Below, piece by piece: positions 14,040 through 23,041 of a DNA stretch of 60,158 bases (positions are counted from its first letter, which is position 1; every line of letters begins with the position of its first letter). The notes below the pieces were generated by a model that worked only from the letters and a program-made list of their open reading frames with translations, did no database searches and was not told where the DNA came from. Position numbers and translations under genes: made by a program. The stretch covers positions 1 to 60,158 of the forward strand of contig JAKFXL010000021.1 of assembly GCA_021731365.1 (NCBI GenBank), read 5' to 3'. Origin of the DNA: Gammaproteobacteria bacterium (GTDB lineage: Bacteria; Pseudomonadota; Gammaproteobacteria; Tenderiales; Tenderiaceae).

Positions 14040-15167
14040 TCAAAATACAGTCTCCTGGTCCACAAACAGATCAGCCGAGCGTAATACCGGCAGCAGAGTG
14101 GTATCCGCATAATCATCCCCTGTTTCACGCGGATCGATCTGCTCCTCCTTATTGCTCTGCAGCGCAGTGTGGCCATGTCCTTCGTGCAGCTGTTGCAACA
14201 TCGGCTCATAGCCCGGCTGCCACGCCATTATCGTTTCAAAACGTTGTCGCAGTGCCTTAAGAATCGCCATGCCACTGTAGTCAAGATCACCCCAGAAGTA
14301 GATTGGCGAGCTGCTCAACGCTTCACCAAACCACCACTCCTCAAATTCAGACTGGCGACTGCATTCACCTTGATAGTGAAAACTGACCCCCTCACGGTTG
14401 CGGATGCGCTGGGCACTACCACGAAAACCGGCACAGTAGACGAGCGCCAGATCACCCGCTACCGCCGGCCGGCCATGCATGGCACTGCAATAACTGTCCT
14501 GATTTTCGATCATCAATACACCATCGATCCGCGCCGGCAGATAGACATTGATGATAATCGGACGTGGTGTAAGCTGAATATCGGGATAGAGTGCCGTGAT
14601 CAAATCTTCTCTGCCATCAAGAAATTTTGATTGCCCCCAGAAACAGCGGGCGCTCAGCTGTGTCAGCGTCAGCCGTTGTGATTGATATTGCGAGATAGCC
14701 ACAAACCCTTCAAGGATCTCCACCTCCGAGCGGCCGGAAACCATAATAGGGCGTATCTGCAGCAGCAACACCTCACCCGGGAAATGATGGGCGCGTTGTA
14801 TCACAGTCTCCTGCCATTCACGCTGCAATGATGGTTTGTGTGGTCGCTGCAACCACTCCCGCAGCGTCTCTTCAAAATCAAGATTAAACAGCAGACGTGC
14901 ATCTTTATATTCGGGATCAAACGGGGCCCGTCTGGGTTTGGTGATGATCAGCAAACAGCCAAGCGGATCAAGCTGTTTAAGCAATGCCCAACTTCTATCC
15001 GCTGCCTCATCCTGCCTGAATAGCTTTGGACAGAGCAGCGCCGTTAGTTTTAACTCCGGCACCTCTTTCCAGCGCTCAGCAGGCTTTCTATCGAGTTTAC
15101 CGATAAATGCATGCAACAGCGCTGCAATCTCTGGCTCATCATCCAGCCAGCGTGGCTTTTCAATCAC
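14040..15167 (-). CDS. jetD: Wadjet protein JetD, TOPRIM-like nuclease subunit
   Basis: A 375-residue protein of the DUF3322-DUF2220 class. In type I Wadjet systems JetD is the nuclease that cuts plasmid DNA once JetABC has extruded it. The C-terminal DUF2220 part carries a TOPRIM-like acidic motif in YFWGDLDYSGMAIL (~residues 293-306), and an upstream segment DLALVYCAGFRGSAQ. The start is GTG at 15167, three bases after the jetC stop, so the two are translationally close. It is the last gene of jetABCD. Family assignment is supported by gene order and size as well as the motif. Confidence 0.9.
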   Translation of the reverse strand: MIEKPRWLDDEPEIAALLHAFIGKLDRKPAERWKEVPELKLTALLCPKLFRQDEAADRSWALLKQLDPLGCLLIITKPRRAPFDPEYKDARLLFNLDFEETLREWLQRPHKPSLQREWQETVIQRAHHFPGEVLLLQIRPIMVSGRSEVEILEGFVAISQYQSQRLTLTQLSARCFWGQSKFLDGREDLITALYPDIQLTPRPIIINVYLPARIDGVLMIENQDSYCSAMHGRPAVAGDLALVYCAGFRGSAQRIRNREGVSFHYQGECSRQSEFEEWWFGEALSSSPIYFWGDLDYSGMAILKALRQRFETIMAWQPGYEPMLQQLHEGHGHTALQSNKEEQIDPRETGDDYADTTLLPVLRSADLFVDQETVF

Positions 15168-15170
15168 TGT

Positions 15171-18100
15171 TTACACCATATCCATAAAATCAAGTTCGGC
15201 CTGTTGATAAACCATGCGCCGATGGTTGGCCCAAAGGGTTTTTATCTTCTCTTCGTTACATTTTTTGCGATCGACAAAGACACGTGTCAGCAGCTGACCG
15301 CGTGGTTTTTCACTCGGGCATTTAGCAAAGATAAACTCATTGCTTATAAGGTCCATAAAGGGACCGCATTTACTGGTGGGCATAATAAAGAGCAGCTGTA
15401 GGCCAAGGCTATTGGTGAGGTAGTGAATCACCTCCCGTGAGCGGGTCTCGTCCATTTTAGAAAAGGCCTCATCCACCAGCACCATACGCAGATGGCTGCT
15501 GCCTTCAGAAAACCTGAATGCCGAGGTGATCGCTGCCGAACGAATGATATAGGCCGGTGTTTCGAGCTGCCCGCCTGAGCCTGTCCCATATTCACTCAAT
15601 GCAATGGGCGGTTTACCTTCAACCTCTTTATAGATCTCGTAGAGACGGTAGTTACGGTAATCAGCTATGCGTTCAAGATCTGCAAAAGCCTTGATCTCAT
15701 CCTCAGCCAGCAGCATGGTCATCACCTGATCGCGCACTGTTTTTGATTTTGCTGACAGCTCTGCATCAAACAGGCTGACATCATCACCCAGCGCTGGGAA
15801 CTTCACTACCTCTTCAAAGAAGCGGGCGTAGTCGCGATACTCCGGTATCCAGTCACTGGCAAAACGGAAGGTCTCGCGATCGGCACCAAACTTGTGATGT
15901 TGCAGCTCTTTGTTGAGCAGTTCGACCTGACGTTTACCATCGTTAATCGCCTGATGAATGGAGTGGCAAAGATTGGTGACAAAGGCACTGTTAAAGCTAT
16001 CCTTCAACAACATCAACTGTTCGTGCTTCTCCACCAGGATGTTGTTCTTGAGGATGTTATAGACACGATCGATATCAAGTTGCAGGCCACAGATTGTCTT
16101 GAAAAGTCGGCTGTCGTAATTACCGTCAAAGCCGTAGTAGACAACCGAGTCACCGGGACGACATTGCTGATTGTGCGCCTGCAACGCATCACCCATGCGC
16201 CGTTCGCTGCTATGAAGTTGACTCTCAATCTCTTTGCGCTGCTGCGTGGCAAATTCAAGATTCAACTCACGCGCCTCGTAGTCAGCGTGATTGAGTCGGA
16301 TATCAACCTCAAAATCGGGCCAGACTGCCGCAAGGGTACGTAACGTATTTTCCCACTCATCCACCGCAGCGCGATTTTTCTCCTGTTTTTCACTCAGATC
16401 ATGACAACGTCTGTCGGTATCGCTCAATTTTTCTGTGAATTGCCCCATGGATAAAATCAGCTCGTGCTCACGATTGCGCCACTTTTTCTCGTCATCACGC
16501 AGCTGTGTAAGTCGCTCCTCAAGGGCCTCAAATTCGGTAAGGTCGAGCTGTGCCAAAAGTGCTTCGAGGGTTTGCAGCTCACGCCGTGTTGCCAGCAGGG
16601 TGGTGATAACATCGGCATAACGTAGTGGTACCAGACCATCTACCGCCTTGATCAATACCGCACCACGCTGCATCCGTTCACTGGCACTGTTACGTTTGAC
16701 CTGAATAGTCTCCAGCTCTTGCAGTTTTGCCTTAAGCGCCCGTTCACGGGCGGCAATACCAAATACCAGTTCACTGTCGGGCAGATCGCAGCGCCACATG
16801 CTGTAGTTGCCAGAGGCCATGCCGTCAGCCGTCAACCCACGACGGGTATGGCGCAACTGCTCAGCATCCTTCACCCGCAAAACAGTACCGTAACTGGCCA
16901 TCACATAGTGACGGGCAACGGCGTGGCTGAACTCCAACACATGAAGGATAGAGTCACTATCAACACTCATGCGCTCGGCATCTTGCCGCGCCTTTTCACC
17001 CTGGATGATACGTGCTTTATTATCGCGCCCGGGCATTCGCCTGACGATACGAATCGCCTCAGCCTCATGGGCCGCTTCAACAAGAATAGAGAAACGTGCC
17101 CCCCCCAGATAACCTTCGATAGCCGACTGCCACTGTGCATCTTTCACTTCGATGTGATCACAGAGCACGCGTGGATCGGCCTGTGGGCAGTGGCGTCTGA
17201 TCTCGGCAATAGCACGCTCAACATACCCCGGATAACTGACCTGATGAGACTCGAGCCGTTCGATCTCGCGACGTTTACTGCGGTACTGTTCATCAAGGTC
17301 GCTGTAGCTGCGCTCACGGCTGTGCGCCAGGCGTGCCAGCTGATCACGCAGTGTCACACCGCCCTGCAAATCAGCACTGTGCCAGTGGTCATGCCACTGG
17401 TTGTGCAGCTGCTGAATGGTACGGGCCTGATCGAGATGGAGCTCCAGCGCGGCAAGATCGTTGGTCATATCACGCTGCAACATAGACTGAAAGTTGATCT
17501 CGCCACGTTTCCCCTGCTCCAGCAGCTGTTTGCAGAGTGATGCCGTTTTAAGATCGGCGACTTGTGGCAGATCTTCGATCAAGTCAGCAGCGAGCAGATC
17601 ACTTTTAATCTGACTGCTAAACTGAATATTATTTTGTAATGTGTTGTCTTGAATCAGCAATAGTTTGGCCTGTTCGACCAACACCCCGTCCTCTTTCCGC
17701 AACCGTGTCTCCAGCTCATCCTTCTGCTGCAAGGCCGGCACACCGATACGCTGCGCCTCCAGTGTCACCAGCTGATCGTGCACCTGTTCACTACGCTGTT
17801 TGCTGAGAGCCAGCTCCTCATCGCTATCCTTGAGATTGCGACGCAACTCCTCCTGCAATTTTTTGGCACTCAGATACTCCTGCTGGCGCTGCTGATAACC
17901 GTGTTGCGCCAAGGTATAATCAAGGGTATTGAGATCGATCCACTGCTCGATGTAGCGCTGACTCTGCTGCCGCGCCTGTTCAAGAATGGTGATTGAATCT
18001 TTCAGCTTCGCCGCATCACGCTCCATGGCGTGAATGGTTTTAAGCTGACTGGAGATGGAGCGAATGGCCTCACCCAGATCTTTACGTTCCAGGATCTCTT

Positions 18101-18803
18101 CAGAGACAAACTTGTTAATACTCTGCACCGGCTTGTAGGCCATGAAGCGTGAGAAGGCCCGTGCTGCGGCCATCGCCTCCTGCTCCGCCACCGCATCGCG
18201 CAAGCCACGCAAGGCTCCATAAAGACGACGCAGATAGGCGCGTTTGGTATCGTATTTTTCAACGGCACGTTTACCAAACTCTGCGATCAACAGCGTCTGT
18301 AGCTCATCAAGTGGCGTTACATATTTACCCACTTTGTCTTCACGCACAAAATGTTTCAGCGACAGCTGTTCACCGGGCAGAATAAAAAAGATTGCATCGT
18401 CCTGACGCGCCACGCTGTTACTACCGGAGAGATCGAGCCAGGCACGTACGGCAATAATGGCAGTGAAAGGATCCGCCGTCTCATCTTCAGTAGGATGAAA
18501 TACCGCCACCAGATAACCATCCGTAGGATCAAGCCGCGCATAGCTGCCATCGTCACAACCCAGTACGTATGAAGAGAGTGTACGTACCCGTTTACCACCA
18601 CGACCACGCTGGGTTGTTTCATCTTGCCCGGGGTTGTACTGAAACAGATTTTCGTGCGCGGCGGTCATGATGGTCTGAATCGCATCCGCCGCAGTGGTCT
18701 TGCCTGAACCGTTACCACCAGAGAAAAGATTTACCGGACCGAACTCAAATTCCAGACTGGGAATATTGCCCCAATTGACGAAGATAAAACGTTTAAGAAA
18801 CAT
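15171..18803 (-). CDS. jetC: Wadjet protein JetC, SMC/MukB-like ATPase
   Basis: A 1210-residue SMC-like ATPase, the loop-extruding motor of Wadjet. Walker A is GGNGSGKTT near the N-terminus (~residue 30). A very long coiled coil runs through the middle (~240-520 and ~690-900), broken by a hinge-like globular region (~530-680). The head re-forms at the C-terminus with the ABC signature region [12 protein letters not shown] and Walker [12 protein letters not shown] (~1100-1112). ATG 18803 is chosen over 18818 because GGAG sits at the right distance and [14 protein letters not shown] fits the usual SMC start. It overlaps the end of jetB by 11 bases, suggesting coupled translation. Confidence 0.93.
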
Positions 18804-19467
18804 CCTCTCCCACCTCATTGCTCTCCTCGTTTATGGCCACACCCCCCTGCTCTAGCGCCAGCAGTGCCTCATCATCCACAAAACTAACAATCATGGGATG
18901 GATCCTCAGCCACCCTTCGCCGCTCTCCAGTGCCTCATCCTGATTGTATTGCACGAGACGCAGTTGGCGCAGGCGCTGAAAGAGACGGCGGCGCTCCATA
19001 ATTTTGTCGGGCAGGGTACGGCCCAGCAGGTTTTTTAGCGCAATGCTGATCGACTCCATCGACTCAGCGACATAGCCATGTTCATCAACCTTGCCTTCAC
19101 GCAGCGCCTTATCGTATTGGCTACGCAATACCAGAATCAGCGCCACCTCGTTTTGCGTAAGACGTGCACGCAGGCTGCCACTGAAGGCGTTATCACCCGC
19201 CTCGTCCATACCGGGTATACGGCTGCTCGGCGGATAGAGACGAATATATTCAAAACGACGATCATGATGAACACGGATCCCGAGCAGGCTGAGATACTCA
19301 TCCACCCATTCAGTGCTACGCAGATAACGGTCATACAGCTGCTGTTCGGTCTGACTCTCCTGACGACTCAAAACACCGTAATTCATCAGCCGGATAAGCA
19401 GTTCCTGAAACTCTTCAAGGCTTATATTTTCACGCGCCAGTCTGTCGCGCAGCGCTTCACTCAGCAT
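18793..19467 (-). CDS. jetB: Wadjet protein JetB (DUF4194, MukE-like)
   Basis: A DUF4194 protein of about 224 residues, the MukE-like accessory (kite) subunit that bridges JetA and JetC. It starts [16 protein letters not shown] at ATG 19467; the open frame extends further upstream into jetA but homology and the overlap pattern favour this start. Winged-helix character: [26 protein letters not shown] and [26 protein letters not shown]. It overlaps jetA by 11 bases and jetC by 11 bases, an identical arrangement at both junctions. Confidence 0.9.
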
Positions 19468-20908
19468 GGCTATCCTGCCCTTGTTCTTTAAGTTCGATGA
19501 CAAACTCGTCACACGTCTCAAAATAGTCGGTGCTCACCAACTGCCCGGTCGCCTCGACCTGAAAACGGTATTCACTGGAGTTACCGGCAGCACCCAACTC
19601 AATCACATGGGCACTCATCAACAACTCTTTAGCATTATGCACCGGTAAATTTTGGCTACGCAGGCGGTGGCCGCCACTCAATGCCGCCACCACGTACTCA
19701 CGCTGCGCCTGGCTATTCACAGCAAAGGCACTCTCCACCGCCTGATGCAGGAAGAGTCTCTTGCGCGACTCGCGATCCACTTCACCATGGCTTTCAACCG
19801 TAGTATTTACCACACGCCGCACGCGGCCAGTGTGTATACGCAGTGCGCCAGGATCGACCATCGCAACATTCAGCGATGACAGCACCTCACCAGCGGCGAC
19901 AAGTCGCTGCGCCTGCTCCTCTGCGGGCAGTTCGCAGAGCTGCTGGCAGATCTCCAGCAATCTGTTCTGATGACCTGCGGTGGAATAACTGAGCTGGCGA
20001 ATAATGATGTCAGCACGACGGGTGAAGCTGTTAAGCGCATGACGCAGTGCTGGCAGCATAGTCTCGGCGGCGCTGTGCATACGGCTCTCAATGCCATCAA
20101 GCACGGTGAGGTAGAGCGAGCGTTTCGGGTCACCAATCAGCTCCGGTGCCACCTTACGCAATTCACGCTCGGCATCGGCCTTAAACTCTTTACGCTTGCG
20201 GCGGGCATTATTGATAAGCGTTTGAATCTCATCACGATACTTTTCGACACTGTCGGCAGAGAGCCGCACCGCCAGATCAGGCATGAAGCGTTTCTCCATA
20301 AAGTCGAAGAACTCATCACTGGCGTGCTGTACGATCTGCTGCGCCTCCACCTCTCTCACCAACTGTCGTTTACGCTCGTCGAGTTCAGCGATCACATCGC
20401 TGAAGTCACTGATGATCCGCTCTGAATACTCAAAGGCATCAAGCAGGTCGTAGACCTCGCCCTTATCAAGAAACGATTGCATGGCATTGCGGGTATTGCG
20501 GGTATTACGATGACGGGTACGAAAACGTCCCCCTGCAGTCTCTACCATCGGCTGGGTGAAGAGGCGGCCAACGCGGGTAAAGGCGTAGCTGCTTTGCAAG
20601 GTCGCCTCATCAACAAGCCGTTCGAGCCAACCGTAGTCGAGCAATTGATTCAGTATCCAGTTGGCCTGCTCACGTTCGCTACGTGCTGGAGCTGTGTGTT
20701 CGTTGGCAACATCTTCGTCGAGCAGCGGCGCACGCACCAACGCCTCCTGAAAAATCTCAACCAGCTGTTCACGATTTAAGGCACGGCGATAATCGGCCAC
20801 CGAACTATAGAGACAGGCGTAAAGCTCTCGCAGACACTCCACGATCTGTTCGCGGTATTTGCTATTGAGGGGGCGAAAAAAATGTTTACGGTCGTCACTA
20901 AAAAACAT
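19457..20908 (-). CDS. jetA: Wadjet protein JetA (DUF3375, MukF-like kleisin)
   Basis: A 483-residue DUF3375 protein, the MukF-like kleisin of type I Wadjet. It begins [20 protein letters not shown], with an N-terminal winged-helix region ([29 protein letters not shown], ~residues 85-115), a helical middle (~145-330) and a C-terminal winged-helix segment that contacts the JetC head. It is the first gene of the operon, starting 56 bases after the rpoH terminator hairpin, so the promoter must lie in a short AT-rich gap. The complete jetABCD set with no stop or frameshift indicates an intact system. Confidence 0.9.
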
Positions 20909-21013: not shown

Positions 21014-21865
21014 TCAGGCAACAAATGCCGCCTTCAGCTTTTTAATGGCGTTACCCTCAAGCTGACGGACCCGCTCAGCAGAGACCCCATACTTATCCGC
21101 CAACTCATGCAATGTTGCCTTATCATCCGCCAGCCAGCGGCTATGCAGGATATCGAGGCTGCGCTCATCAAGCTGCGCCATCGCGTTTTTAAGCTGCACC
21201 TCATTCTGCTCTGCCCACTGCTCCTCCTCAAGCTCCATGGCAGGGTCAAGACGCTGATCGGTAAGATAGCCAGCAGGGGCACCAAAATGGTCATCATCAC
21301 CCTCCCCCACATACGGATCAAACGAGGCGTCGTGAGAGTTGAGACGCGCCTCCATCTCCATCACATTTTCAGTGGTCACCCCTAGATCACTGGCAACCGT
21401 CTCAATCTCCTCCTGCGTCATCCAGCCAAGGCGTGAACGGGCTTTACGCAGATTGAAAAAGAGCTTGCGCTGGGCTTTAGTGGTCGCCACCTTGACGATG
21501 CGCCAGTTCCTCAACACATATTCGTGAATCTCTGCCTTGATCCAATGCACAGCAAACGAGGCCAGACGCACGTTCATGGTCGGGTCAAACCGTTTAACCG
21601 CCTTCATCAGGCCAATGCTGCCCTCCTGAATCAGGTCTGCCTCCGGCAGGCCATAACCGCGATAGCCACGGGCAATATAGGCCACAAAACGGAGGTGGGA
21701 GAGGACCAGCCGACGGGCTGCGTCCAGATCATTATCGCGGTGTAACCGGGTGGCGAGTTCCAGCTCCTCCTCGGCGCTCAGCACCGCAATACGGGAGACG
21801 GCAGCCTGATAGGCTTCCAGGCTGCCCGTGGGGAGAACCAGTTCCAAATCCATACCTTTACTCAT
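21014..21865 (-). CDS. rpoH: Heat-shock sigma factor sigma-32 RpoH
   Basis: The alternative sigma factor that directs RNA polymerase to chaperone and protease genes. Diagnostic RpoH box QRKLFFNLR is present (residues ~132-140), along with region 2 ([26 protein letters not shown] split over two helices, [18 protein letters not shown]) and region 4 ([19 protein letters not shown]). Length 283 is normal. It follows ftsYEX, the usual gammaproteobacterial order, with a 198-base gap that carries a CIRCE operator and promoter-like AT-rich sequence, so it has its own regulated promoter. Confidence 0.97.
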
Positions 21866-21993
21866 TGTCAGCGTACCCTTCTATTCCCGAAAGTATTTTT
21901 AGGTGTAGACGTTCAAGTGTTTTTTCTCAACCTCGGCGGCGCTCTTAGCGGCAACGGACGAAGTCTTTTAACAGTGTTTTACTATACGACATT

Positions 21994-22020
21994 TTAGCAC
22001 TCAGCTTCTAGGAGTGCGAA
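21994..22020. promoter_or_regulatory. CIRCE element (HrcA operator) upstream of rpoH
   Basis: TTAGCACTC, nine bases, then GAGTGCGAA: the CIRCE consensus TTAGCACTC-N9-GAGTGCTAA with one mismatch in 18. Centre is about 142 bases before the rpoH start. On the rpoH strand TAAAAT and TATAGT (-10-like) lie at or just after its downstream arm, and TTCGCA (-35-like) is its upstream arm, so bound HrcA would block a promoter here. Confidence 0.8.
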
Positions 22021-22063
22021 TCTGGGACAAAAGTTCAGCACATTCTGACAAACACCCCCCTGC

Positions 22064-23041
22064 TCAGACAGGCTCAATCGTCCGTATGCGCCGCCCAGCC
22101 ACCAGCCAGGCCCCCATTAAACCCAGCAGAGGTCCGGCCAGCAACAACAACAATGTGGTATCCAAGCCAATCAATCCAAGGGCAAAATCGCTGCCGTACA
22201 GGGCCGCCAACTGCTGCACCGGACCATCCAGCAGCAGCAGCAACACATTCACCAGCAGCCACGCAACCAATCCGCCAAACAGGCCGTACCAGACGCCACT
22301 ATAAAGGAATGGGCGACGTACAAAGGCGTTGCTCCCCCCTATCAGCTTGATCACCTCAATCTCATCACGACGGTTCTGGATCGCCATACGGATGGTATTG
22401 CCAATCACAAACAGCACCGCCAGTGCCAGCAGCAGACCAAATACCAGCACCGCACGGTTAGCCAGATCGATTAGTCCATGCAGCCGCTGCACCCATTCCA
22501 GATCGAGCTGGGCCTGCTCCACTTCTGGGCGGGCGCGCAGCTTGCTCAACAGCACCTCAGTATCCAGCGTTGTGCTCTGATCGAGCTTGGGGTAGACCAC
22601 CAATACCGCAGGCAAGGGGTTTTTATCCAGCATCTGGATCACATCGCCCAGGCCTGAGCCCTGACGAAACTCTTCCAGCGCCTGCTCAGCACTAATATAT
22701 TTAACGCTGCTGATCTCAGACCAGCCCTTCACCTCTGACTGCAGTGCCAGCGCGCCATTTTCTGAAGTGGTATCGCGTAGAAACAGGGAGATCTGAGCTG
22801 ACTCCTGCCACGCCGCCCCCAGGCTCTGTACCTTACTGAGCGATACGTGGAGCATGGTGGGCAGCGCCAGGGCGACACCTATCACCATCGCTGCCATGAA
22901 CGTTGAGAGCGGCATCCGCCCCAGCAACCCAAGACTGCTGGTCAATACATGGAAATGGAGGGCGAGATAGTTCTGTAGCCGCGCCTTGAGGCTTGGGCGG
23001 TTACGCCGCACACTGGGCGGACGGCGTTCACTGCTACTCAT
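22064..23041 (-). CDS. ftsX: Cell division protein FtsX
   Basis: Membrane subunit of the FtsEX complex, which couples ATP hydrolysis in the divisome to activation of cell-wall amidases through EnvC-like partners. Four helices: one at ~44-66 and three at ~205-320, with a periplasmic loop (~67-200) carrying the extracellular domain (SLFLRDTTSENGALALQSEV). The cytosolic N-terminus is basic. Its ATGA overlap of 4 bases with ftsE shows tight coupling. Confidence 0.95.
   Translation of the reverse strand: MSSSERRPPSVRRNRPSLKARLQNYLALHFHVLTSSLGLLGRMPLSTFMAAMVIGVALALPTMLHVSLSKVQSLGAAWQESAQISLFLRDTTSENGALALQSEVKGWSEISSVKYISAEQALEEFRQGSGLGDVIQMLDKNPLPAVLVVYPKLDQSTTLDTEVLLSKLRARPEVEQAQLDLEWVQRLHGLIDLANRAVLVFGLLLALAVLFVIGNTIRMAIQNRRDEIEVIKLIGGSNAFVRRPFLYSGVWYGLFGGLVAWLLVNVLLLLLDGPVQQLAALYGSDFALGLIGLDTTLLLLLAGPLLGLMGAWLVAGRRIRTIEPV

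Follow-up and report, generated by a model that had tools for sequence, protein, structure and literature searches.

The heat-shock sigma factor gene rpoH has been placed under HrcA and its operator CIRCE before. Table 8 of PMC545781 lists rpoH as a predicted member of the HrcA/CIRCE regulon of Geobacter sulfurreducens, with TTAGCACTC-N9-GAGTGCTAA upstream of the gene in a genome that contains both hrcA and sigma-32. The same type of site precedes rpoH in the gammaproteobacterial DNA studied here (the window, a stretch of 60,158 nucleotides). The two cases differ in that G. sulfurreducens is a Deltaproteobacterium and, in that table, has its site at -51 (PMC545781), whereas the assembly to which the window belongs shows no hrcA. 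The combination of CIRCE with rpoH is not new: it was predicted earlier in Geobacter, and it is common in Gammaproteobacteria and not special to the present genome. A closer relation is the CIRCE of groESL in the window genome's own family. It has the palindrome, the spacer and the presumed repressor in common with the rpoH site, but it follows a separate TTGACT-N16-TAT[CT]AT promoter, whereas at rpoH the arms themselves would be the promoter. E. coli, which served as control in the hrcA search, has no hrcA, and we know of no CIRCE at its rpoH gene. The likeness there is with the sigma-E promoter P3, which lies upstream of rpoH after ftsYEX and has a GAACTT-type -35, a TCnnA-type -10 and a similar spacing. 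Permina and Gelfand (2003) reportedly compared beta-, gamma- and epsilon-proteobacteria, and their study may list gammaproteobacterial rpoH sites. An experimentally shown link between HrcA and rpoH in Gammaproteobacteria was not found in the open-access papers searched.

Read on the rpoH strand from 22020 to 21994, the palindrome is TTCGCACTC-CTAGAAGCT-GAGTGCTAA (TTAGCACTCAGCTTCTAGGAGTGCGAA on the forward strand). It has the canonical spacer of nine bases and matches the reference consensus, TTAGCACTC-N9-GAGTGCTAA, at 17 of its 18 arm positions. Its centre and the start codon (ATG) of rpoH are 142 bp apart, and it lies inside the 198-bp gap between ftsX and rpoH, and the genes are arranged as ftsY-ftsE-ftsX-rpoH (Table 1). 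The original prediction of a 17/18 CIRCE match in a promoter-like region of rpoH was borne out: the only sigma-70-like match between 21800 and 22150, TTCGCA-N18-TAAAAT with TG, lies exactly on the palindrome. In the whole 3.4-Mb genome the rpoH palindrome was the sole match at three mismatches or fewer, so that the search for further CIRCE sites proposed with the prediction yielded none. When the window was shuffled 100 times, matches at this threshold occurred in 3 of the shuffled sequences, and the analytic expectation at one mismatch or fewer is 0.003 for a genome of this size. A looser search of the genome with the core gave 99 sites at two mismatches or fewer against 68 with the reversed control; the only mismatch-free site was that of rpoH, and no second site stood out. 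On the other side of rpoH a complete type I Wadjet plasmid-defence operon (JetA-JetB-JetC-JetD, 14040-20908, (-)) was found. Because it is on the same strand and starts 105 bp past the rpoH stop codon, it could share the transcription of rpoH.

Table 1. Features at the rpoH locus of the window and the evidence for each.
Feature	Position	Strand	Evidence or remark
CIRCE palindrome TTCGCACTC-N9-GAGTGCTAA	21994..22020	(-)	17/18 to consensus, spacer 9
Sigma-70-like -35 TTCGCA, made by the left arm	22015..22020	(-)	Promoter scan; weak by itself, 4/6
Extended -10 TGC-TAAAAT, made by the right arm plus AAT	21991..21999	(-)	Promoter scan; T at +3
Sigma-E-like -35 GAACTT, 10 nt upstream of the left arm	22031..22036	(-)	GAAC[TC] seen in 46/66 sites
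Sigma-E-like -10 TCCTA, sharing its first two bases with the end of the left arm	22009..22013	(-)	Consensus and spacing only
rpoH, sigma-32, regulated gene	21014..21865	(-)	NCBIfam TIGR02392, 400 bits, cut-off 323
ftsX, upstream neighbour, same strand as rpoH	22064..23041	(-)	Part of the ftsY-ftsE-ftsX-rpoH array

The relation between palindrome and promoter was studied in 66 rpoH sites, in which the arms are nearly invariant yet asymmetric. A T is present at the third base past the right arm in 61 of the 66 sites, as against 17 of the 66 at the mirror position (Fisher, 1e-15). The left arm varies at its position 3 in 17/66 (G in 16 of these, giving TTGGCA), whereas the mirror position 25 varies in a single site (1/66; P 5e-5). 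Each of these asymmetries agrees with a sigma-70 promoter that reads towards rpoH, TTNGCA-N18-TAAAAT preceded by TG, which would be built from the arms. The motif GAAC[TC] occurs 8-10 nt upstream of the left arm in 46 of the 66 sites, compared with 10 occurrences in 1980 positions elsewhere. It would serve as -35 to a sigma-E-like promoter, and the left arm would contribute its final two bases as the first two of the corresponding -10 (TCnnA). From the consensus we infer that these elements would be used by sigma-70 and sigma-E. In six family members the groES CIRCE lies downstream of its separate promoter, with no AAT behind it. The superposition is therefore a feature of the rpoH site: at rpoH the palindrome falls on the predicted core promoter, which it does not do at groES. 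We did not find an earlier description of this operator-on-promoter arrangement, which is the candidate new part of this work.

Fifty-six gammaproteobacterial genomes were compared for RpoH, HrcA, CIRCE and the region upstream of rpoH, and the rpoH site was scored as present at no more than three mismatches. Of the 32 hrcA-bearing genomes in which the region upstream of rpoH could be read, 29 had it (the exceptions being G023, G036 and G047). It was seen in none of the 11 genomes that come from other families and gave no hrcA in the search, the best matches there having 6-9 mismatches. The Fisher P of this co-occurrence, which still contains phylogenetic dependence although the genomes outside the window's own family were mostly one per family, is 6e-8; it becomes 2e-6 if two family members with proven loss of hrcA are added as site-bearing (2/13). 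The window genome, G002, G008, G026 and G048, in which the hrcA locus is unassembled or unexamined, are not in this count. Because the site tracks hrcA in this way, the rpoH palindrome appears to be an HrcA operator by descent. Within the family hrcA is present in six other members, and the HrcA proteins of G004 and G003 are full-length TIGR00331 equivalogs. Among 80 named rpoH loci, taken irrespective of hrcA status, the site is common and is perfect in Pseudoalteromonas; it is absent from the entries of Enterobacterales, Haemophilus, Halomonas, Legionella and Aeromonas. The inverted repeat, for which a comparison in relatives had been suggested at the outset, is conserved in them. The accompanying remark that this wiring differs from that of E. 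coli holds where the operator is concerned, but the operator is the usual state among the sampled hrcA-bearing Gammaproteobacteria. Two details were noted in single genomes: in G020 an additional half-site carrying the same tail (gagtgctaaaat) stands ahead of the perfect rpoH-CIRCE, which gives the impression of a duplicated operator-promoter, and the rpoH match of G001 contains one in-frame TAG.

HrcA (PF01628) was not found in the assembly of the window genome, which is listed as 98.8% complete, and the HrcA-type DNA-binding domain (PF03444) was found in none of its proteins. In relatives the gene is part of the array recN-nadK-hrcA-grpE-dnaK-dnaJ-dapB-carA-carB. GrpE was not found in the window genome's assembly either. 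With the DNA of the block as query no orthologues were retrieved from this assembly, and pieces of RecN, NadK, DnaK, DnaJ, DapB, CarA and CarB were matched there by paralogues only, the best being an Hsp70 paralogue of 55% identity; the same query recovered the block genes in control relatives. Because the joint loss of all these housekeeping genes is not credible, absence of the whole recN-nadK-hrcA-grpE-dnaK-dnaJ-dapB-carAB block is an assembly gap and not proof of hrcA loss. The same gap was seen in G026 (97% completeness), in which only recN was found. A true loss of hrcA from the window genome was accordingly regarded as unproven, since grpE, dnaK and the genes around them are missing too. 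According to the original prediction a genome devoid of hrcA would speak against HrcA control. No hrcA was found, but this has no force as a refutation since the hrcA-dnaK block as a whole is unassembled. A missing contig is evidently able to mimic the loss of a regulator.

It is nevertheless conceivable, with a chance that we put slightly under even, that hrcA has been lost here and that the palindrome persists as an orphaned operator through promoter selection on the -35, the -10 and the sigma-E -10 contained in its arms. Such a loss was found in two relatives. In G010 and G005 hrcA was not found and nadK adjoins grpE on one intact contig, with gaps of about 0.24 and 0.46 kb that leave no room for hrcA, which must therefore truly have been lost. 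The rpoH palindromes of these hrcA-free species, which cluster on the trees of rpoH, where the grouping is modestly supported (0.68 and 0.75), still match at 17/18 in G010 and 16/18 in G005. Moreover, TGCTA[AG]AAT is retained in the decayed sites of G002, G006 and G008, where GAG has changed. Promoter selection alone can explain the survival of most of the palindrome, as judged from these sequences.

Two features of the window genome itself bear on this question. The one groES found in it (contig C12) has no CIRCE (8 mismatches at best), and upstream of this gene stands CTTGAAA...CCCCATATA, by eye a sigma-32-like promoter; a groESL CIRCE is present in six hrcA-bearing relatives of the family (G001, G003, G004, G006, G007 and G009). 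In addition, its rpoH palindrome carries at left-arm position 3 a C that only G002 shares and that occurs in no sampled hrcA-bearing genome. G002, the site of which has decayed, groups with the window genome with a support of 0.99 on the rpoH DNA tree and 0.17 on the protein tree. Together, the groES without CIRCE and the C at position 3 lean somewhat towards weakened HrcA control or hrcA loss here. Against this stand the presence of hrcA in six other family members and the fact that the hrcA locus of the window genome is simply unassembled. Besides, the groES-groEL found may not be the ancestral copy, because its GroEL is more divergent (78-83% identity to four relatives that are 85-88% identical among themselves) and its neighbourhood is unlike that of the relatives.

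We consider it very improbable that some other regulator takes the place of HrcA at the palindrome in the hrcA-free genomes, with all 18 arm positions under selection, in which case the rpoH CIRCE, doubling as core promoter, would outlive HrcA in the service of a different protein in HrcA-free family members. The arms of G010 are indeed identical to those of the hrcA-bearing G004, although 15 of 33 neighbouring bases differ. However, the predicted promoter elements account for most arm positions, the excess of arm conservation between the two hrcA-free species G005 and G010 falls short of significance (P 0.08), the site is not retained in the 11 genomes of other families that gave no hrcA, and the window genome's proteins are without the HrcA-type domain mentioned above. 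A role of the inverted repeat as RNA, either as terminator after ftsX or as leader hairpin or thermosensor of the rpoH mRNA, was rejected as having practically no likelihood: a short stem is possible in the predicted leader fold, but this fold is no better than that of shuffles (z 0.69), a terminator-like site was not found, the Rfam search gave no match, and the arms are near invariant with single-arm changes that are uncompensated.

The element is thus very probably, on the strength of its sequence and distribution, an HrcA operator (CIRCE) by descent that is situated on the rpoH promoter. This judgement concerns the identity of the element, whereas that on the loss of hrcA concerns the present state of the organism and assumes the same descent; the two are not to be added up. 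The palindrome would have been inherited as an HrcA operator from the ancestor of this gammaproteobacterial family. Its arms would supply the -35 and the extended -10 for sigma-70, and the left arm would start the -10 of the sigma-E-like promoter. Bound to the core promoter, HrcA would deny RNA polymerase access to rpoH. Unfolded protein that engages GroEL would render HrcA inactive, whereupon rpoH would be derepressed and the level of sigma-32 would rise; the sigma-E-like start would add an envelope-stress input to rpoH. Binding, repression and GroEL dependence are ascribed to HrcA here by analogy with HrcA in other bacteria. As to the proposal that HrcA stands above the sigma-32 gene, a CIRCE-type operator that is conserved, tracks hrcA and lies over the predicted rpoH promoter agrees with it. 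For the window organism, in whose assembly hrcA was not found, we regard the chances of a live link between HrcA and rpoH as about evenly balanced.

The heat-shock sigma factor of hrcA-bearing Gammaproteobacteria is most likely subject to a GroEL-dependent repressor, and the control of rpoH known from E. coli would therefore not be the rule for the class. The placement of the operator on the promoter may explain in a simple way how the site can survive the loss of its repressor.
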